DNA of 64,000 bases, from contig CP075364.1 of NCBI GenBank assembly GCA_019454105.1, positions 2,297,362-2,361,361 of the forward strand. The letters run 5' to 3'. The DNA is from Fimbriimonadaceae bacterium. Its GTDB lineage: Bacteria > Armatimonadota > Fimbriimonadia > Fimbriimonadales > Fimbriimonadaceae. The position numbers and the translations under genes are program-made. The stretch's first letter is position 1; each line of letters starts with the position of its first letter. Below the pieces are notes generated by a model that saw only the letters and a list, made by a program, of their open reading frames with translations, had not been told where the DNA came from and did not search any database. Below, in pieces: positions 22,650 to 45,137 of this stretch.

Positions 22650-22841
22650 ATGGAGAAACTCGCTTACCGAATTCCCGATGTCGCTGCTGCGCTGAGCATC
22701 AGTGAATCGAAGGTTAAGCGATTGATCCGTTCGAAGCGACTCGGTCACATCAAAGATGACGGCACGACGATGATTACCCGTCGTCAAGTGGAGGCTTATC
22801 TCCGCGAAAAGGAACTGGAGCAAGGGTGGAAAGAAAGCTAA
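22650..22841 (+). CDS. xis: Excisionase-like HTH_17 protein
   Basis: 63 residues forming one MerR-like winged HTH: YRIPDVAAALSISESKVKRL, then IRSKRLGHIKDDGTTMITRR and QVEAYLREKE. AAGGA lies nine bases upstream of the ATG. It is convergent with the integrase and their stops overlap by four bases, the usual position of a recombination directionality factor. It probably bends att DNA and favours excision. Confidence 0.8.
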   Translation: MEKLAYRIPDVAAALSISESKVKRLIRSKRLGHIKDDGTTMITRRQVEAYLREKELEQGWKES

Positions 22842-24049
22842 CGCCCTTTCGGCGACGCCGCCTTGACCACTCGCTCCAGTTCTTTCCTCAGAATCCCCTG
22901 CGCATCGCTCAAGAACCTCGTGTAGTTCCGCAGGTTGACGGTCAAGCCCCTGTGCTCAGAGCTATTTCGATTCACGCTGTGGCCCATATGCTCAAGGCGC
23001 GTGGATAAGCTCACCTTCGGGCAGAACTTTTCAAGCCACGTATTGTGGCTGAGCCGACAGTCTCTCGGTTCCAAGTCCTCCGGTAAGCCCGTTTCCTTGA
23101 GAATGCGGTGCCAGTTTTCATAGGTTCGTTTCTTCATCCGAGGGCTGTCGACAGACTTCGCCGGGAATAGGTAGCTATCAGTCTTCTCGGCCAACGGCCG
23201 TAGCAAGTCGGCCAAGGTTGGGCACATTGTAACCAGCCTCACCTTGTCGCCCTTTGGCAATCCGATGTCCTGCTTGCCAGTTGGTCCAAGCTTCACCGCC
23301 CGGTCTATGACAATCACTCCCTTATCGAAGTCGATCTGCTCTGCAGTGATCGCCATGTGCTCGCTCAATCGGAGACCGGCCAGAAAAAAGAGCCCGAGAA
23401 ACGCTCGGTCTTCGTCATTCGAGAGCTTTCGGATCGCCTGCATCGCGTCCTTTGGCGTCACGACAATCGCTTCTCGCACTTCGGGGGTTTCGAGCTTGAC
23501 CTTGGGGAACGGGTTGCGAAGATTCGGCAGCTTTTCATAGGTGTCGATGGCATCGTTCAAAACTTTCACGAGAACGCCTTGAACGTCCTTCATCGTCGCC
23601 TTGGATTTGCCTTCTTCCTTCATCGCCCGAAAGAAGGCGCGGGCGCGATCGATGTCGATGTGCTGGATGGGCAGTCTTCCAATTTCAGAGTTGCGGACGT
23701 GAGCGTTGTAGCGGCTGACTTTCGTTGAGATCGTCTTGAGCTTCATCCCGTCCTCCTGCCAGCGGCCTCCGAATCCGTTCGCCGATGTCCCGGCAAGTTC
23801 ATCGAACCAAGCATTGAGCGTCAGGGCACGCTTGGCGTTTGCTACCTCGATTTTCTGCCCCGTGTGAACCCGTGCCTTGAGTTCCTTTAGGAACCTCGCT
23901 GCTTCGGCCTGGGTCGCGAAAGTGCGGTCCACCGTCGTCAGCTCGTTGGACATCGGATCGTCGTACGACCACTGAACCCGCCACTTGCCAGCGAGCTTGC
24001 CGCTAAGCCGCTTGCGGATTGAGCCTTCGCCTGAAATAGCCTTGGCCAT
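22838..24049 (-). CDS. int: Tyrosine recombinase / tRNA-Ala integrase
   Basis: 403 residues: an N-terminal arm-binding domain (SGKLAGKWRVQWSYDD), a SAM-like core-binding domain (about 75-175) and a catalytic domain. Catalytic residues are Arg227 (AGLRLSE), Arg332 (RDCRLSHNTW), His357 (EHMGHS) and Tyr376 (NLRNYTRF). The first His of the HxxR box is replaced by Arg. It starts 24 bases from the first tRNA-derived att repeat, so this repeat is its own attachment site. It is the only tyrosine recombinase for all four repeats. Confidence 0.92.
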   Translation of the reverse strand: MAKAISGEGSIRKRLSGKLAGKWRVQWSYDDPMSNELTTVDRTFATQAEAARFLKELKARVHTGQKIEVANAKRALTLNAWFDELAGTSANGFGGRWQEDGMKLKTISTKVSRYNAHVRNSEIGRLPIQHIDIDRARAFFRAMKEEGKSKATMKDVQGVLVKVLNDAIDTYEKLPNLRNPFPKVKLETPEVREAIVVTPKDAMQAIRKLSNDEDRAFLGLFFLAGLRLSEHMAITAEQIDFDKGVIVIDRAVKLGPTGKQDIGLPKGDKVRLVTMCPTLADLLRPLAEKTDSYLFPAKSVDSPRMKKRTYENWHRILKETGLPEDLEPRDCRLSHNTWLEKFCPKVSLSTRLEHMGHSVNRNSSEHRGLTVNLRNYTRFLSDAQGILRKELERVVKAASPKGR

Positions 24050-24072
24050 GGTTCCTACAGTCTACCCTCTGG

Positions 24073-24159
24073 TTTAGGAACCAATCTTAGGAACCATTTA
24101 AGTTCATTTGAATCTGGTGGAGATGATGGGATTCGAACCCACGACCTCTGCAGTGCGAT
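24073..24159. repeat. att repeat R1 (tRNA-Ala 3' fragment plus arm sites)
   Basis: Two TTAGGAACC arm motifs (24073-24082, 24086-24095) are followed by a 45-base copy of the tRNA-Ala 3' end (24115-24159), which stops inside the anticodon loop at GTGCGAT. An inverted TTTAGGTTC lies 50 bases further on. The T-arm carries a compensated pair change relative to the intact tRNA (GGG/CCC for GAG/CTC). It marks the right end of the integrase-bearing element. Confidence 0.88.
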
Positions 24160-24255
24160 GCTCGCCAAATCCGAGAATTAACCAAAAATTGGCCTGATTT
24201 TGGGTCAATTTAGGTTCAAAAGGCGACCTCTGCAAAAGGTTAGCCCAAGCAGATG

Positions 24256-24918
24256 TCAATTCAGCGGAAAGCTGGCGGCAATCAAGGGACCGAAACGGTT
24301 CCCGCGAGCGGCGACGATGCCGACATGTAACGCGCCGTTCTTGGTCTTGATTGTCGTAGTCAATCCCGGATTTAGGAACTTGCCGTCGTACTGAAACGAG
24401 AGCTTCCAATCCTTACGCAGCGGAATGCCGACTCCGCCAATGAACCTGTTCTCTCCCGATGTCGTGACCCGCGCAAGACCTGCGTAGCCGCTTAGATGTA
24501 GTCCATTGCTCATCGGGAAAGACTTGCCCGCGCTGAGGAAAACCATTTGACGGCCTCCATCGAGCGAGTCCACCATTGCTCCCGCCGTGATCGATGGCAA
24601 GTCCGGCTTCTCCGGGGACAGCACGTAGCTGCCAAGCGGTCTAACAATGTTCTGCTTTCTCAGGTAGCCGATCCCAATCTCCAGCCGGTTAGTGATGCCA
24701 TACCGAGCAAACACCTCCGTCTCTCCGGCCAGCCCTTTGGAGTGCATGCCGGATAGGAACAGATAGCCTTTCTTCACCAATGTCCCCACCGAACCGGTAG
24801 GGTCTCCGCTTTGTGCCGCGAAGCCACTAGCGGGTCAGATGGGTCATCCGGAGGTGGTCTGCGCGTGGCTTAGCGCGGCTGAAGCGGCCATGAAGGCAAT
24901 GAAAGCAAAACGGTTCAT
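24256..24918 (-). CDS. Barrel-like exported protein with two in-frame UGA codons (candidate UxxU selenoprotein, or pseudogene)
   Basis: From the ATG at 24918 the frame encodes a clean signal peptide (MNRFAFIAFMAASAALSHA, cleavage after Ala19), then TTSG, UGA (codon 25), Pro-Ile, UGA (codon 28) and PASGFAAQSG. It continues open to 24256. The rest, about 190 residues, has alternating strands such as TEVFARYGITNRLEIGIGYL, typical of an outer-membrane barrel. The ATG overlaps the stop of the thioredoxin-like gene (ATGA), so this start is the natural one; a GTG at 24789 would lack a signal peptide. If both UGA encode selenocysteine, the mature N-terminus has a UxxUP redox or metal site. Otherwise the gene is dead or truncated. 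Confidence 0.6.
24784..24802 (-). promoter_or_regulatory. Stem-loop downstream of the UGA pair (candidate SECIS-like element)
   Basis: In the mRNA sense CCCUACC pairs with GGUGGGG (two G-U pairs) around a GGUUC loop. The loop begins 39 bases after the second UGA and 48 after the first, slightly beyond the usual bacterial SECIS distance. A second possible hairpin (GUG/CAC under CCGCU/AGCGG) starts closer to the UGA codons. Confidence 0.35.
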
Positions 24919-25181
24919 CCTTGGCCCACTCCGGCCTCAATCAGTGCCTCGCGGCTGACCGGTTCGTTTTGACAGCAGTTCGCGATCTTGCCATTGACGA
25001 CCACTGCGGGTAATCGATTGATTCCATAGGCGGCCGCTTTGTCACGGCACTCGTTCGTGGCGCATCCCTCTCGCAAATCGTAAACCTTGACCTCGCAGTT
25101 TGGGCATGCGAGCTCTTTGACCAGTTGCACTGCCGGCTCGCACACGGGGCATCCGGCGGTAAAGACTTCAATTGTGTTCAT
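24915..25181 (-). CDS. Thioredoxin/glutaredoxin-like protein
   Basis: 88 residues. It has an active-site CPVC (MNTIEVFTAGCPVCEPAVQL), a second pair (CPNC), YDLREG, and the cis-Pro loop NRLPAVVVNG followed by a CC pair. This is a short thioredoxin-fold protein of the kind found beside MerR regulators of Hg/As resistance. I chose the ATG at 25181, which overlaps the MerR stop; the longer frame to 25271 adds no fold. It could reduce or carry metal ions in the cytoplasm, or deliver electrons to the coupled barrel gene product. Confidence 0.85.
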   Translation of the reverse strand: MNTIEVFTAGCPVCEPAVQLVKELACPNCEVKVYDLREGCATNECRDKAAAYGINRLPAVVVNGKIANCCQNEPVSREALIEAGVGQG

Positions 25182-25603
25182 GGGTTGGTCTCCTGATTCT
25201 GTTTGCTGAGCGCGTCCGTTTGAAGAATCGCGCACAGGCATTCCGACTTGGGAAGCGTTCCGCGCTCCCAAGCTTCCAGTTGAGATGTCAATCGGACTCT
25301 CAGGCTCTGGAGATCGTCAATCTCTTGGCCCAAGGCCAAAATGCGGTTCCGCACTAACGCTGCGATCTCCGCACATGGCTCGGTCTCGTCCTTCAGCGCG
25401 TCGAGGGCAACCCGAATAAGCTTCAACGAGAATCTGGCGCGCTTTGCGGCAACGATTAGCCGGAGTCGCTCTAAGTCGGCAGGTTCGTACTCGCGGTAAC
25501 CGGAGTCGCGAACTGAAGGCTTGGGAAGCAGATCCTGCGCTTCGTAATAACGCACTGTGCTCACGCTTACTTCGGCCCGTTTGGCGAGTTCCCCGATCTT
25601 CAT
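25178..25603 (-). CDS. MerR-family metal-responsive regulator
   Basis: 141 residues. The winged HTH is MKIGELAKRAEVSVSTVRYY; EAQDLLP and SGYREYEPADLERLRLIV follow, then the dimerisation helix and a C-terminal Cys motif (SECLCAIL). Only Cys at the extreme end and one in the EPCAEIAAL region are present, which fits a thiol-metal sensor like MerR/ZntR types. A 19-base-spaced promoter precedes it, so the operon merR - thioredoxin-like - barrel gene is autoregulated. Confidence 0.9.
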   Translation of the reverse strand: MKIGELAKRAEVSVSTVRYYEAQDLLPKPSVRDSGYREYEPADLERLRLIVAAKRARFSLKLIRVALDALKDETEPCAEIAALVRNRILALGQEIDDLQSLRVRLTSQLEAWERGTLPKSECLCAILQTDALSKQNQETNP

Positions 25604-25642: not shown

Positions 25643-25700
25643 GGGCCACCGGCAGAATCTTCGGCGCGAAGCCAGATTAGCCTCCTCGAACCGCTTCTAG

Positions 25701-25788
25701 TTTAGGAACCAATATTAGGAACCAACTCAGGTTCGATTGAACTTGGTGGAGATGATGGGATTCGAACCCACGACCTCTGCAGTGCGAT
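25701..25788. repeat. att repeat R2 (tRNA-Ala 3' fragment plus arm sites)
   Basis: The arrangement matches R1: TTTAGGAACC and ATTAGGAACC arm motifs, an inverted arm, and a 45-base tRNA 3' fragment (25744-25788) ending at GTGCGAT. It shares with R1 the GGG/CCC T-arm variant and the junction GCTCGC. It separates cassettes A and B. The right-hand arm GAACCTAAA lies at about 25830. Confidence 0.88.
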
Positions 25789-25839
25789 GCTCGCAAATAG
25801 CGCAAGTTTGGACAAAACACGCCATTTTTGAACCTAAAT

Positions 25840-29568: not shown

Positions 29569-29699
29569 GACGAGTCATACGTGTACTTCGCTGGCTCATG
29601 CTGGCTCCTCTATTGAGCGCTGAGTGCGGATGCAAACCGACCTCGCCCGAAGGGGAAGCGACTCGTGACTTGCCGGAGGTTTCAAGCCATGTTGGATAG
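29565..29699 (+). CDS. 44-residue membrane-leader peptide between ABM and czcA
   Basis: The ATG overlaps the ABM stop (ATGA). The peptide has a basic, hydrophobic N-terminus (MRRVIRVLRWLMLAPLLSAE) then CGCKPTSPEGEA, so it is exported or membrane-bound with two Cys. Its end overlaps the start of czcA by 11 bases. It may be a small metal-binding peptide or only a translational coupler. Confidence 0.5.
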   Translation: MRRVIRVLRWLMLAPLLSAECGCKPTSPEGEATRDLPEVSSHVG

Positions 29700-32600
29700 A
29701 CTCCTCCATTTCAGCCTGACTCAGCGACTCCTGGTTTTTGCCGGAACCATCGGACTTGTCCTTTGGGGAATTCTCTCATGGACCAAGCTCAATCTCGACG
29801 CGGTCCCTGACATCACCACGAATCAGGTGCAGATCAACACGCAAACCGGGGGCATGGGACCCGAGGAAGTGGAGCGGCTGGTGACGTTTCCCATCGAAAC
29901 GGCGATGGCCGGCCTTCCCGGCGTGATGAACACCAGGTCGCTCAGCCAATACGGTCTGTCCCAAGTCACGGTGACATTCCACGACAACGTGGACATCTTC
30001 TTCGCGCGTCAGCTTGTGAACGAACGGTTGAGCAGAGTTGGCGCTGAGTTACCGGCGAATATTGATGCGCCACAAATGGGGCCGGTTTCCACCGGGCTCG
30101 GCGACATCTACATGTTCTCGGTCGAAAGCGACAAGCGCTCGATCACCGACCTGAGGACGATCATGGATTGGCAGATCGCGCCCCAGCTTCGCTCGGTCGC
30201 CGGAGTCGCCGAAGTCAATGTTGCTGACGGTAACGTTAAGCAATATCAAGTGGTCGCCGACATGGCTCGGCTGCAAGCGCGCGGACTCGGCATCCACGAC
30301 CTGATCGAAGCCCTGCAGAACAATAACCAGAACGCGGGAGGAGGAGTTCTCGACTCTGGAGGGGAGAGAACGCTCATCCGATCGGTGGGCATGGCTTCCA
30401 CACCAGAGGAAATCGAAACCATTCCCGTCTCAAGCGAAGACGGCACGCCTGTGCTCGTGCGCGACGTGGCCGAAGTCACGACAGGGACACCGGTCGTGAC
30501 CGGACTGAGCACGAAGGATGGCCACGAAGCCCTTCTCGCCATCGCGATGATGCTCAAGGGGGCCAACGGACGAACGGTCGCCCAGGCAGTGGACGCCAAA
30601 ATCGAGGAGATCAAGGCGCAGCTTCCCGAGGATGTCAAGCTGACGACGGTCTACAACCGCGCCAACTTGGTCAACAAGACGGTAGGCACGGTTGAGAAGA
30701 GCCTGCTGGAAGGCGGCATCCTCGTCATCGTCGTCCTTCTTCTGTTGCTTGGAAACTGGCGCGGCGCAGTAATCGTCGCTTTGGCAATCCCATTGTCGAT
30801 GCTCTTTGCCATCGGCATGATGAACCAGTGGGGCATCTCTGGGAACCTCATGAGCCTCGGTGCGATCGACTTTGGTTTGATCGTCGACGGCGCGGTCGTC
30901 ATGATCGAGAATGCCGTCCGCAGGGTTGCGGAAGCCCGCGAGCATGCCGGTAAGACGCTAAACCGTCATGATGTGCGGCACGTGGTCTGGGAGTCCTCGA
31001 AGGAAGTGGCCAAGCCAACGGCCTTCGCGGTTTCCATTATCACGGTCGTTTATTTGCCGATCTTGGCGCTGGAAGGAACCGAAGGCAAGATGTTCAAGCC
31101 GATGGCCTTTACGGTCGTGTTCGCGCTACTTGGCGCGTTGATCTTAACCCTTACATTGGTTCCGGCTTTGGCCAGCCTGTTCTTGTCAGGCGACACGCGC
31201 GAGGGCAAGAACCCGATCATGGGATTCTTCAGCCGTATGTACAAACCCGCATTGACCTTCGCGCTGCGCGCAAAGGCAATCGTTGTCGCGGGGGCTCTCG
31301 TTCTGCTGGGGCTAGCGGGCTGGGTCTTCACTACGCTGGGCGCTGAGTTCATTCCAACCTTGGATGAAGGCGACCTCGTTGTGCAGCCGATTCGTATCCG
31401 GACCGTCAACGCAGAGGAAACCATCCGGCTGGTAACCGCAGCCGAGAAGAAGGTGCTGGAAGTTCCGGAGGTGATCACGATGTTCTCCCGGAGCGGCACG
31501 CCTGAAGTCGCTACCGATCCAATGCCGCTTAGCCTTACCGACAGCTTCATCATGCTCAAAGAGAGGGATCAGTGGCGTGCGGGAATGACTAAGGAAAAGA
31601 TCCGCGAGGAGATCGAAGAAAAGCTCAACGAAGTCCCAGGCCAAGGCTACAACTTCTCGCAGCCCATCGAAATGCGCTTCTCCGAATTGGTTTCCGGGGT
31701 CAAGGCCGACATCGGAATCAAGGTGTTTGGAGAAGACTTGGAGGTGCTCCGTCAGAAGGCTGAGGAGATTCGGGCGGTTGTTGCAGAAATCCCGGGCGCA
31801 GCGGACGTCGAAGTCGAGCAGGTTGAGCCCATCCCCGTTCTCCAAATCGACATCGACCGCGAAGCCATAGGGCGGTTCGGAGTTTCGATTAGCGAAGTCC
31901 AAGAGTTAATCAGCTCAGCCTTAGGAGGCGAAGAGATTGGGCAGATTCGTGAAGGGGACAAGCGGTATGAGCTGATCGTTCGTTTGCCTGCCGAAGTACG
32001 AAACGACGCTGATGCCATCGCGAGTTTGCCCGTGAAGCTAGCCAACGGCGAATCGGTCCCTCTATCGAGTCTGGCGCATATCGACAATCAACCTGCACCC
32101 GCCCAAATCAGCCGGGAATCGGGCAAGCGGCGCGTCGTCGTTCAGCTCAACGTCCGTGGAACCGACCTTGCTGGCTTCGTCGCGAATGCCCAGAAGGCCA
32201 TTGACGAGAAGGTAAAGCTCGACGAAGGCTATTACATTACGTGGGGCGGTCAGTTCGAGAACCTGCAGCAAGCAAGCGCACGATTGATGATTGTGGTGCC
32301 TCTGGCGCTTGCCTTGATCTTCACCCTACTCTTCATGACTTTCGGCTCGATCAAGCAGGCGTTGCTGATCTTCACCGGCGTTCCACTGGCGGTGACGGGC
32401 GGTGTTCTTGCCCTATGGATCAGAGGGTTGCCCTTCAGCATCTCGGCCGGCGTAGGCTTCATAGCCTTGTCCGGAGTTGCGGTCCTGAATGGTGTTGTGA
32501 TGGTCTCTGCGATCAACCGATTGCGACAAGAAGGCAAGCTCTTGGTTAAGGACGCCGTTAGCGAAGGTGCCCAGCAGCGTCTTCGTCCGGTGCTGATGAC

Positions 32601-32787: not shown

Positions 32788-34907
32788 AGACGGTCTTCCG
32801 GATCGGAAAGATGGATTGCCCTACGGAGGAAGGCATCATTCGGAACCGTTTGAAAGGGATGAACGGGATCGAGCGGCTGGAATTCGACTTGATGAGCCGC
32901 AAGCTGACGGTGATCCACGGACATCCCGACGAAAGCACCATCCAGCAAGCCCTTGAATCGGTAGGAATGGATCCAAAGCTCGTAAGTGAAGACGAGCCCG
33001 AATCGGCGGGGCACGGACCGGCTGTTCCGATTCTCGATCGATGGCTCATGGGAGCTTCTGGAGTCCTCGCGGTGGCCGCCGAAGTCATCGCGTGGACTAT
33101 GGGCACAGAACGGTCATGGCCGGTGATTGCTCTAGCACTTGGTTCGATTGCGCTGGGCGGCAAGGAGACGATTCGAAAGGGGATCGTCTCCCTGCGGACC
33201 CTCACGCTCAACATAAATTTCTTGATGACGATTGCGATCATCGGGGCGGCCTTCATCGGGCAGTGGCCCGAAGCCGCTATGGTCACCTTCCTCTTTGGGG
33301 TCGCTGAAATGATTGAAGCATTCTCGCTCGATCGAGCGCGTCACGCGATTCGCTCACTCATGGAATTATCCCCCGAGCGTGCACTTGCATTGGTCGGAAA
33401 CGAATGGGTCGAAATCGAAGCTTCCAGCGTCGCTCTCGGGCAACTCGTGAGAGTTCGGCCAGGAGAACGCATCGCGCTAGATGGCCTCGTAAAGAAAGGT
33501 TCCTCCAGTGTAAACCAGGCCCCTATTACCGGAGAAAGCATCCCGGTTGCTAAAGCGGCTGGAGATCAGGTCTTCGCCGGGACGATCAACGAGAAAGGCA
33601 GCTTCGATTTTGAAGTTACGGCTAACACGGGGCAAACGACATTGGCACGGATCATTCGAGCCGTGCAGCAAGCGCAGAGTCAGAAGGCGCCCACGCAGCG
33701 TTTCGTCGACCAGTTCGCTCGGTACTACACGCCGCTCGTCGTCGTATTGGCAATCCTCATTACGGTCGTGCCACCCTTGCTTTTGGCCCAACCTTACTCG
33801 GATTGGCTCTACAAAGCATTGGTGCTCTTGGTGATCGCGTGCCCATGTGCGCTGGTCATCTCGACTCCGGTCACTGTCGTCAGCGCTTTGGCCTCAGCAG
33901 CAAGACGAGGAATTTTGATTAAGGGGGGCGTTTACATCGAAGAGGGTCGGAGGCTCTCGCGAATTGCTCTTGACAAAACCGGCACCTTGACCCATGGCTT
34001 GCCAAAGGTGACCGATGTTATACCGTTCGATTCCATTGAAGAAGTGGAACTGCTTCGATTGGCGGCTAGCCTCGACGCCCCGTCGGAGCATCCCGTAGCT
34101 ACCGCCATTGTCGATGCCTACAAAGGCGAAAGAGCTTCTGTCCAAGAGTTCGAGTCCATTACGGGGCGCGGGGTGAGCGGAGTCGTTGATGGGCAGCAAT
34201 ACTTCCTTGGAAACCATCGGCTTGCTCACGAGGAGGACTACTGCCGCGCCGAGGTCGAGGCAGTTCTCGAAGACCTCGAAGAGCAGGGGAAGACCGTCGT
34301 CATTCTCGGCAACGCTGATCGGGCGCTCGGGGTCATCGCGGTTGCCGATACCGTCCGCGAAACGAGCATTCAGGCAGTTAAGGAGCTGCACGACCTTGGA
34401 GTGAGAACTCTCATGCTCACTGGTGACAATGCTCGAACCGCAAATGCCATTGCTGCCCAAGTAGGCATTGACGACGCTCGCGGAGACCTACTTCCTGAAG
34501 ACAAGCGAAAGATCATCACCGAGCTAACCGCTGACGAAGAACACGTGGGCATGGTGGGTGACGGCATCAACGACGCCCCCGCATTAGCTCAGGCAGACGT
34601 CGGCTTCGCGATGGGCGCAGCCGGAACGGACACGGCGATAGAGACTGCCGACGTCGCGCTGATGCAAGATGACCTGCGCAAAATCCCCGAGTTCATCCGA
34701 CTGAGCCGCCGAGCTTCCACCGTATTGAAGCAAAACATCGCATTCGCGATTGGTGTAAAGGTGCTTTTCTTCGTGCTCGCCTTCTTGGGGATCGCGACCC
34801 TCTGGATGGCGGTCTTTGCCGACATGGGGGCGAGTTTGCTTGTGGTTGTAAATGGCCTGCGGCTCCTACAGTCTCCCATCGGCTCCTCGTTTAGGAACCG
34901 ATCTTAG
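32784..34907 (+). CDS. Zn/Cd/Pb-type P1B ATPase (ZntA/CadA-like)
   Basis: 707 residues. The N-terminal HMA-like domain has a single Cys in KMDCPTEEG. Helix 6 has the CPC motif (IACPCALVISTP), the phosphorylation site is DKTGTLT, the hinge is [10 protein letters not shown], and the C-terminal helix pair ends LVVVNGLRLL as in ZntA. It removes Zn/Cd/Pb from the cytoplasm and is coupled to czcA (ATGA). Its last codons (SSFRNRS and the TAG stop) lie inside att repeat R3, so the gene end was supplied by recombination. Confidence 0.93.
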   Translation: MKTVFRIGKMDCPTEEGIIRNRLKGMNGIERLEFDLMSRKLTVIHGHPDESTIQQALESVGMDPKLVSEDEPESAGHGPAVPILDRWLMGASGVLAVAAEVIAWTMGTERSWPVIALALGSIALGGKETIRKGIVSLRTLTLNINFLMTIAIIGAAFIGQWPEAAMVTFLFGVAEMIEAFSLDRARHAIRSLMELSPERALALVGNEWVEIEASSVALGQLVRVRPGERIALDGLVKKGSSSVNQAPITGESIPVAKAAGDQVFAGTINEKGSFDFEVTANTGQTTLARIIRAVQQAQSQKAPTQRFVDQFARYYTPLVVVLAILITVVPPLLLAQPYSDWLYKALVLLVIACPCALVISTPVTVVSALASAARRGILIKGGVYIEEGRRLSRIALDKTGTLTHGLPKVTDVIPFDSIEEVELLRLAASLDAPSEHPVATAIVDAYKGERASVQEFESITGRGVSGVVDGQQYFLGNHRLAHEEDYCRAEVEAVLEDLEEQGKTVVILGNADRALGVIAVADTVRETSIQAVKELHDLGVRTLMLTGDNARTANAIAAQVGIDDARGDLLPEDKRKIITELTADEEHVGMVGDGINDAPALAQADVGFAMGAAGTDTAIETADVALMQDDLRKIPEFIRLSRRASTVLKQNIAFAIGVKVLFFVLAFLGIATLWMAVFADMGASLLVVVNGLRLLQSPIGSSFRNRS

Positions 34908-34977
34908 GAACCACTTTAGGTTCATTTGAATCTGGTGGAGATGATGAGATTCGAACTCACGACCTCTGCAGTGCGAT
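34890..34977. repeat. att repeat R3 (tRNA-Ala 3' fragment plus arm sites)
   Basis: TTTAGGAACC (34890-34899) and CTTAGGAACC (34903-34912) arms, then the 45-base tRNA 3' fragment (34933-34977) ending at GTGCGAT. Its T-arm matches the intact tRNA (GAG/CTC), unlike R1 and R2. It separates cassettes B and C. The inverted arm GAACCTAA lies at 35019-35026. Confidence 0.88.
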
Positions 34978-35028
34978 GTCTCTATCAACACACAAATTCG
35001 CCAAAAGCGGTCGTTTTTGAACCTAATC

Positions 35029-37552: not shown

Positions 37553-37942
37553 ATGAACGATGTCGTCCTGTTTGGCAAAGCTCTCGCCGATCCCACTCGT
37601 GTGCGAATCCTTGCGGCACTGCTCAAGAACGGGCTTTGCGTCTGTGAGCTTGCCGATGCCCTGGAGATGAGTCAATCAACGCTCTCCAACCATTTGCAAA
37701 CCCTCCGTCAGGCGGGAGTCCTCTCCACCACACAGAGGCACAAGTGGATCAACTACAGCATCGAGCCGAGCGCAAAGCCCGCACTTGAAGCCGTTTTGAA
37801 CCACTACGCGGCAGCGCTCAAAGCGGACCAACGCGGCCAGCGCGACGCGGAAAGGATCAGAAGGAGGCTCGCCATCAGAGTAGACGGCTATTGCGTTCTC
37901 GGCCCAAACCAACTCGATCAAGGAGAAAAACATGAACTGTAA
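37553..37942 (+). CDS. ArsR/SmtB-family metal-sensing repressor
   Basis: 129 residues. The winged helix is LADPTRVRILAALLKNGLCV, then CELADALEMSQSTLSNHLQT and LRQAGVLSTTQRHKWINYSI. CVCEL in the recognition helix is the ArsR-type thiol site (Cys-x-Cys), suggesting Cu(I), As(III) or Cd(II) sensing. The C-terminal tail (GYCVLGPNQ) has another Cys. Its stop overlaps the Cys-rich peptide gene by 11 bases, so it leads a four-gene operon. The frame upstream of 37553 belongs to the opposite-strand copA region. Confidence 0.92.
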   Translation: MNDVVLFGKALADPTRVRILAALLKNGLCVCELADALEMSQSTLSNHLQTLRQAGVLSTTQRHKWINYSIEPSAKPALEAVLNHYAAALKADQRGQRDAERIRRRLAIRVDGYCVLGPNQLDQGEKHEL

Positions 37943-38018
37943 CTGTAATTGCGACTGCTGCGCCTCTGGGCAATGCCCCGGCTCGACCTGCACCTGTGGA
38001 TGTCCATGCGGAAAATAG
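37932..38018 (+). CDS. 28-residue metallothionein-like Cys-rich peptide
   Basis: The ATG has AAGGAG six bases upstream. Of 28 residues, ten are Cys, at positions 3, 5, 7, 9, 10, 15, 20, 22, 24 and 26: a run of alternating CxC motifs, a Gly/Pro turn, then another CxCxCxC run. There is no signal peptide. The pattern is that of a metal-thiolate cluster peptide. It sits between a thiol-type ArsR and the barrel gene, which suggests cytoplasmic sequestration of the metal that the repressor senses. It does not match the bacterial SmtA-type metallothioneins that I know. Confidence 0.8.
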   Translation: MNCNCNCDCCASGQCPGSTCTCGCPCGK

Positions 38019-38620
38019 CTGTTCTGTTCGCCGCTCTGCCCGTCCTGGCATATTGTCAGACGAGCGTCCCAACGTGAACTGGGTGACCCGGCGAAGGCCA
38101 GCTTCTCGGTTCGGGAAGCCTCAACAAGAGATGGGTAATCGCCTATCGATTCGCCGACACGCCTCAACTGCGACCACGGCACCGATTGACGATCGACTAC
38201 AACGCTACGCCCAACTTCCAGATCGGAACGGAGTACAACTTCGCCGTCCAAGAACTAGGGTTGAGGGCGACGTGGGTCGTTCAGAGCGAGAACGAGAAGA
38301 GACCGATGATCTTCTTCAACACAAGTTCGGACCGCATCGGGACGCCCGAGGGCTATCAACTCGCCAGCGCCAACTTCGGCAAGACGATTCCCGGTACCCA
38401 GCTATCGCCATATCTCTCGATCACCTACTCGGGCTTCGAGAAAAAGCTCGTCTATCCGTTCGGCGCGAGTTACCGTTTCTCACCCGAGTGGACTGCCATC
38501 GCCATGAACGACGGCAGGAAATCGCACCTGCTCGTCACCTATTCGCAATCCAACTATTTCATTCAAGCCGGGTGGATCTGGTTCAAGCATCCAGCGATCA
38601 CCATCGGCTGGGGATTCTAA
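38006..38620 (+). CDS. Barrel-like exported protein with two in-frame UGA codons (candidate UxxU selenoprotein, or pseudogene)
   Basis: The ATG lies in the Cys-rich peptide gene (13-base overlap). The frame encodes a signal peptide (MRKIAVLFAALPVLAYCQ), then TSVPT, UGA (codon 24), Thr-Gly, UGA (codon 27) and PGEGQLLGSGSLNKRW. It runs open for 178 further codons with beta-strand-rich sequence (NFQIGTEYNFAVQELGLRAT, SYRFSPEWTAIAMND). A late TTG start would lose signal peptide and first strands. The UGA-x-x-UGA-Pro spacing is identical to the gene in cassette A. If read as Sec, a UxxUP motif sits at the mature N-terminus, where Cys forms would have CxxCP. A 7-bp stem with a GGUUC loop follows. 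Confidence 0.62.
38101..38119 (+). promoter_or_regulatory. Stem-loop downstream of the UGA pair (candidate SECIS-like element)
   Basis: GCUUCUC pairs with GGGAAGC (one G-U pair) around a GGUUC loop. The loop begins 22 bases after the second UGA and 31 after the first, within the range usual for bacterial SECIS elements, and starts with GG as SelB-binding loops do. The loop is identical to that in the cassette A gene. Confidence 0.45.
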
Positions 38621-38624
38621 TCAC

Positions 38625-39275
38625 GTGAAAACAATCGCTACTCTACTCCTGGCCTTTGCATCGCTTGTCTCGATGGGCCAAGACACGCCGACCGACATCG
38701 CCAAGAAAGACCTTCCCAAAGAGGCCAAGTGCCTCCTCTGCCCCAACGATGGCCCCGAAAAACCAGCCGGGGGTCTGATGTACAAAGGCAACGCGTACTA
38801 CTTCTGCAACACGAAGGAAATCGCCGCGTTCAAGAAGGACCCGGATGCATACGTACCGCCTGTATTGCCCCGGCCCGTGCCTGAATTCGCTCTAGTCGAC
38901 ACCACAGGCAAGACCTGGGATGCCGAATCGATGAAAGGCAAGCTCGTGCTCGTGGATTTCTGGGCCACCTGGTGCGCCCCCTGCAAAGCCATGATGCCCA
39001 TGCTGGACAAGCTCCACGCCCGCTACAAGGAGAAGGGTTTCGAGATTCTCAGCGTCAGCATCGACGAAAAGCAGCCCAACCTTGACAAGTTCCTCAAAGG
39101 CCACAAGTTCCCCAACCCCGTCCTCCACGACGATCAGAGAACCTGGCAGAAATGGGGCGTCAAGAACATTCCCGCCATGTTCTTAGTAAGGGACGGCCAG
39201 ATCATCGCGCAATGGACGGGAAAGCAGACTGAAAAGACCCTCGAAGCTGGCATCTCTGCCAACTTGCCCAAGTAG
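38625..39275 (+). CDS. Exported YHS-TlpA fusion (thioredoxin-like)
   Basis: 216 residues, GTG start five bases after the barrel gene stop. A signal peptide (TIATLLLAFASLVSMGQ) is followed by a YHS-like segment (CLLCPNDGPEKPAGGLMYKG then YYFCNTKEIAAFKKD) and a TlpA/redoxin domain with WCAPCKAMMPML and cis-Pro KNIPAMFLV. It is a periplasmic thiol oxidoreductase with a metal-binding head. Being next to a barrel with a possible UxxU site, it is a natural reductant for it or for copper proteins. A hairpin terminator follows. Confidence 0.9.
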   Translation: MKTIATLLLAFASLVSMGQDTPTDIAKKDLPKEAKCLLCPNDGPEKPAGGLMYKGNAYYFCNTKEIAAFKKDPDAYVPPVLPRPVPEFALVDTTGKTWDAESMKGKLVLVDFWATWCAPCKAMMPMLDKLHARYKEKGFEILSVSIDEKQPNLDKFLKGHKFPNPVLHDDQRTWQKWGVKNIPAMFLVRDGQIIAQWTGKQTEKTLEAGISANLPK

Positions 39276-45061: not shown

Positions 45062-45137
45062 TGGTGGAGATGATGAGATTCGAACTCACGACCTCTGCAG
45101 TGCGATTGCAGCGCTCTCCCAACTGAGCTACATCCCC
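45062..45137 (-). tRNA. tRNA-Ala (anticodon CGC)
   Basis: A 76-base cloverleaf including an encoded CCA. The acceptor GGGGATG pairs with CATCTCC (one G-U pair). The D-arm is GCTC/GAGC, the anticodon stem CTGCA/TGCAG has loop ATCGCAC (anticodon CGC), and the T-arm is GTGAG TTCGAAT CTCAC. Its 5' end overlaps the 3' end of mqnA by ten bases. The integrase crossover lies in the anticodon loop region, since the partial copies all end there. Confidence 0.95.

Follow-up and report, generated by a model that had tools for sequence, protein, structure and literature searches.

Does a gene that opens with a signal peptide and then meets two in-frame UGA codons three codons apart encode a selenoprotein, or has it decayed? 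This question is raised by gene A, which lies on the minus strand at positions 24256-24918 of the stretch that we analysed (the window: 64,000 nucleotides of contig CP075364.1 from the Fimbriimonadaceae bacterium assembly GCA_019454105.1). Gene A resides on a mobile cassette beside a thioredoxin-like gene and resembles a second gene of the window, gene C (38006-38620, plus strand), in a neighbouring cassette.

Two in-frame UGA codons and their conservation

Translation of 24918 to 24256 (minus strand) yields MNRFAFIAFMAASAALSHA followed by QTTSG-UGA-PI-UGA-PASG, 220 codons in total, with in-frame UGAs at codon 25 (24846-24844) and codon 28 (24837-24835) and a final TGA at 24258-24256. The signal peptide MNRFAFIAFMAASAALSHA (24862-24918) is cleaved after Ala19 as judged by inspection, and the homologues also have hydrophobic N-termini. 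The ATG (24918-24916) overlaps the stop codon of the thioredoxin-like gene as ATGA. Gene C reads QTSVPT-UGA-TG-UGA-PGEG, with its UGAs at codons 24 and 27 when counted from the ATG at 38006, indicating that the UGA-x-x-UGA-Pro spacing is identical, but that the codon numbers differ by one from those of gene A, whereas the preliminary description had them coincide. Two further points needed correction. First, that description noted that the barrels look different in sequence and took the two genes as independent cases, but a profile-profile comparison shows that they are homologous and belong to one superfamily (hhalign probability 99.6%, E 2.6e-24). Second, the GTG at 24789, named there only as a start that would speak against its reading and used by a mechanical ORF list, is not the start, because the homologues inspected carry the signal peptide and the [UC]xx[UC] motif upstream of it. 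Its main interpretation, that both UGAs are read through as selenocysteine (Sec), is supported by the analyses below.

To determine if the UGAs are conserved, we conducted read-through searches of 291 genomes of the phylum and found A-type matches in 61 genomes and C-type matches in 63. Twenty-seven distinct A-type and 61 distinct C-type genes keep UGA at one or both positions, and homologues keep UGA across 40 or so genera. The nearest relative of gene A (62-64% identity, another genus) has the same GUPIUPASG motif, others read PPUPLUPASG, SGCPLUPASG or GGCPLUPSSG, and a wider set reads [RHLGK]CPLU[AVITM]xGG. Codon 25 is Cys in many relatives, while codon 28 is UGA in the Sec-containing A-type members found and Cys in genomes without detected selA. 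The C-type motif PTUTGUPGEG is nearly invariant. Moreover, the window's own genome harbours two more paralogues (at 1678093-1678653 and 495492-496079), with VPTCAGUPGEG (CxxU) and APTUAGCAAEA (UxxC), so that every Sec/Cys combination except CxxC occurs in one genome. A relative has two YHS domains fused to APTCAGCAGEA (CxxC), suggesting that YHS proteins deliver something to the barrel.

If the UGAs are decoded as Sec, the UGA forms should track the Sec machinery. Indeed, the genome (2.74 Mb, one contig) has a tRNA-Sec with anticodon UCA about 3 kb beyond the right end of the window (74.6 bits, also found by ARAGORN), SelB (323 bits), SelA (440 bits) and SelD (341 bits), the last with an in-frame UGA of its own in a UxxK context (CAGUASK). 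A different signal-peptide barrel-like gene without CxxC lies beside the tRNA-Sec gene (789-1424 of locus L001). Among the 291 genomes, those with a Sec-type barrel have selA in 59 of 62 cases versus 83 of 229 for the others (Fisher 1.7e-18), and within the window's family the numbers are 38 of 38 versus 12 of 47. Conversely, the four genomes with CPLC or CPIC at the gene A positions are genomes in which no selA was found. On the other hand, three of the 62 Sec-barrel genomes lack a detected selA, C-type barrels with two UGAs occur in two MAGs where no selA was found (probably assembly gaps), and close relatives of gene A in two genomes that have selA replaced both positions (GPLS, GPLT), a loss of both chalcogen residues that is unexplained.

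To gauge the distribution beyond the phylum, we searched a GTDB-wide collection with a stringent DNA pattern for the C-type UGA-xx-UGA motif and recovered 70 loci, of which 57 have a confirmed barrel. The remaining 13 (contig ends or chance) were not counted. The confirmed loci are in at least nine phyla, the records naming Armatimonadota, Acidobacteriota, Gemmatimonadota, Planctomycetota, Latescibacterota, Poribacteria, Eisenbacteria, Krumholzibacteriia, KSB1 and a 'Deltaproteobacteria' MAG. In 29 genomes behind pattern loci mostly outside Armatimonadota, including a few doubtful loci, selA is present in 25. By contrast, the plasmid collection contained no match for gene A or C and viral contigs contained no C-type motif.

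A candidate bSECIS hairpin downstream of the UGAs

We then asked if an element that could direct Sec insertion follows the UGAs. In 57 of 61 C-type genes and in most A-type genes a hairpin loop, often GUU, AGUUC or GUG, starts 21-22 nt after the second UGA. On 58 aligned C-type genes the stem is 93.4% paired with changes on both sides in 6 of 8 pairs, and covariation is 0.607 compared to 0.284 in shuffles and at most 0.222 in slid registers. Similarly, 20 A-type genes show 90% pairing, changes on both sides in 6 of 7 pairs and covariation of 0.424 compared to 0.127 and at most 0.147. Windows starting at the UGAs also fold better than synonymous-codon controls (mean z about -1.0 to -1.1, elsewhere mostly between +0.1 and -0.7). 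In gene A itself, the candidate bSECIS hairpin (24781-24846, minus strand; stem 24823-24818 / 24809-24804) folds to -31.2 kcal/mol (z -3.21 against dinucleotide shuffles, 0 of 200 shuffles). Its 8-nt apical loop GGCACAAA (24817-24810) starts with GG, 17 nt after the second UGA and 26 nt after the first, within the published bSECIS limits (loop of 3-9 nt, G in the first two loop positions, loop 16-37 nt after the UGA, MFE <= -7.5; PMC13188914), so one hairpin could serve both UGAs. However, this loop lacks the common GU and gene A alone is only moderately unusual against synonymous-codon shuffles (p 0.05-0.26), and the case for the element rests on the family.

Predicted barrel, gene neighbourhood and cassette mobility

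AlphaFold2 models gene A as a 12-stranded barrel (pLDDT 79, pTM 0.75), with the KdgM porin as the nearest structure (Z 16.5, rmsd 2.2 over 155 residues), along with FapF, COG4313 and NanC. Gene C is also predicted to be a barrel (pLDDT 87; Z 18.1 to FapF, 16.4 to KdgM). The Sec motif lies in the low-confidence tail between signal peptide and barrel, and its location on the periplasmic side or in the barrel mouth is inferred, as is placement of the protein in the outer membrane.

Gene A is preceded by a gene for a small thioredoxin-fold protein (24915-25181, minus strand; Thioredoxin_3, CPVC) and one for a MerR-family regulator (25178-25603, minus strand; ZntR/CadR/MerR-like, with a C-terminal CLC), and MerR and/or the small Trx lie directly upstream of A-type barrels in several genera. 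C-type barrels are followed at a median of 5 nt by a YHS-TlpA protein in 46 of 91 loci (some loci being duplicates from two searches) and are often preceded by an ArsR-type regulator. In the window, the YHS-TlpA thiol-disulfide protein is encoded at 38625-39275 (plus strand), and a 28-aa Cys-rich metallothionein-like ORF (37932-38018, plus strand) overlaps the start of gene C. Similar ORFs precede A-type barrels: several CPLU barrels follow metallothionein-like Cys-rich ORFs, one a double-YHS protein. CopA is likewise found among the neighbours, and cassettes B and C of the window encode RND-type efflux genes and metal P-type ATPases (the names in cassette B being assigned by inspection), with a short ORF resembling a lipoprotein (29575-29700) before the RND pump gene in cassette B. 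Unsupervised clustering of neighbours also gave some clusters that are reverse-strand shadows of other genes, which we ignored.

The three cassettes (22838-45137) are units stacked in tandem behind one tRNA-Ala gene, each bounded by the same attachment-like repeat (tRNA-Ala 3' end plus flank). Plus-strand copies form the left edge of cassette A (24064-24160) and lie between cassettes A and B (25693-25789) and between cassettes B and C (34882-34978), with the tRNA-Ala 3'-end repeat at 24116, 25745 and 34934. The fourth copy, at 45063, is in the 3' end of the tRNA-Ala(CGC) gene itself (45062-45137, minus strand), the integration target. A tyrosine recombinase of the phage integrase family is encoded beside cassette A (22838-24049, minus strand). 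Importantly, a genome from another genus of the same family (G135) has cassettes B and C at 99.7-99.9% identity and the same left flank at 91.5%, yet cassette A is cleanly absent, revealing an empty site. Another genome (G103) has a gene A homologue followed by the repeat and the start of cassette C. This nearest gene A homologue has a frame change near residue 165 in the MAG (assembly error or decay). Cassettes are gained, lost and shared between genera (95-99.9% identity).

Possible functions and comparison with known systems

On the basis of these results, we conclude that gene A is almost certainly a selenoprotein gene, with actual Sec insertion inferred from sequence rather than from protein-level evidence. 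In the model that we favour with moderate confidence, SelB, directed by the bSECIS hairpin just after the second UGA, inserts Sec at codons 25 and 28, the product is exported and its signal peptide removed, and it very likely folds as a 12-stranded outer-membrane barrel whose mature N-terminus (QTTSGUPIUP) carries the closely spaced Sec pair. We propose that this pair switches between diselenolate and diselenide, or binds soft metal ions, and serves envelope metal defence together with the co-encoded thioredoxin-fold proteins, which might keep it reduced, and YHS proteins under a metal-sensing regulator. The metal-handling role is about as likely as not; there is no direct evidence that the motif binds metal, or which metal. 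More tentatively, the genes could represent an uncatalogued superfamily of outer-membrane selenoproteins in which the Sec pair forms a selenium-based capture or relay site for soft metals (copper, mercury, silver or cadmium class), spread on modular tRNA-targeted cassettes: a selenium counterpart of PcoB-type metal defence, with one bSECIS serving two UGAs nine bases apart.

Alternatively, the pair might be a redox catalyst (a reductase, peroxidase or disulfide exchanger in the envelope), with the metal genes present because metals cause thiol stress. Interchange between UxxU, CxxU, UxxC and CxxC is typical of redox selenoproteins and the partners are thioredoxin-fold proteins (TlpA-like 5 nt downstream in C-type, Trx_3 upstream in A-type). 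However, the motif is on a barrel tail and not in a redox fold, and metallothionein-like ORFs, YHS proteins, MerR/ArsR regulators and metal pumps as neighbours point to metals, so that we consider this possibility less likely, though it remains the main competitor. It is improbable that the barrel is a channel or receptor for a selenium compound or supports Se metabolism: although its distribution follows selA and the porin-like ExtI of Geobacter is implicated in selenite and tellurite reduction (PMC5877670), Cys forms live in genomes without detected selA and the neighbours are metal-resistance genes. A pseudogene or sequencing error, with two real stop codons ahead of a functional form starting at GTG 24789, is excluded in practice, even without read data, by UGA or Cys at the same codons in tens of independent genomes, the motif conserved at the protein level, the covarying hairpin and the Sec machinery. 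Finally, reading of UGA as Trp or Gly, under which the frame would also be open, is very unlikely since UGA ends most long ORFs of the window (25 of 42), the aligned residue is Cys in genomes without detected selA and tRNA-Sec(UCA) is present.

Most known selenoproteins are redox enzymes, many of them thioredoxin-like, with one Sec. The family described here is instead one of small predicted outer-membrane barrels, many with two, that is widespread in poorly studied phyla and probably hidden in databases as truncated barrels, as a mechanical ORF call starts such genes after the UGAs. It links selenium to a proposed envelope metal defence, provides a natural case of one hairpin next to two UGAs and offers Sec, mixed and Cys versions of one protein, some in one genome, for asking why selenium is used. 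Neither type matches an NCBIfam 2026 family, no Pfam family scores above threshold, and the family was not found among the entries inspected in the family table of a 2026 review that covers 119 families (PMC13188914). Literature searches on selenocysteine in Armatimonadetes and on porin selenoproteins found no report of it.

Compared to known systems, the only weak Pfam hit of gene A is DUF2490 (PF10677; residues 151-181, E 0.005), below the curated cut-off and matched by 1 of 35 members of the family set examined. Thioredoxin-fold selenoproteins carry UxxC or CxxU in a Trx fold, whereas the motif of gene A is on the tail before an all-beta barrel. The UxxU selenoproteins, i.e. the metal-binding protein/putative mercuric reductase (NF041115), Prx-like UxxU and FmdB-like UxxU, also have two Sec, and the first is metal related, but they are different protein families without sequence match. 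The known outer-membrane selenoproteins listed in PMC13188914, the FCYXU-type TonB-dependent receptor (NF049945) and the MtrB/PioB-family protein GSU2204 (NF041027), are barrels with Sec, but are listed with one Sec and not a UxxU tail. KdgM/NanC porins, FapF and the COG4313 channel share the small barrel fold (best structural matches Z 14-18), yet identity in structural alignment is only 6-16%, neither Pfam porin profiles nor PDB sequence searches gave a relevant match, and they are sugar or polypeptide channels without Sec. The PcoB/CopB copper-resistance outer-membrane proteins differ in that no Pfam CopB hit was obtained for genes A and C up to E 1 or for the 35 members up to E 0.1, the tail of about 30 residues carries a Sec/Cys pair instead of a long His/Met-rich region, and the partners are Trx/TlpA/YHS instead of PcoA. 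Nonetheless, PcoB, a 12-stranded barrel with a metal-binding N-terminal region encoded in metal-resistance operons (PMC9210255, PMC12509749), is the closest working analogue of gene A, as an analogue and not as a family assignment.
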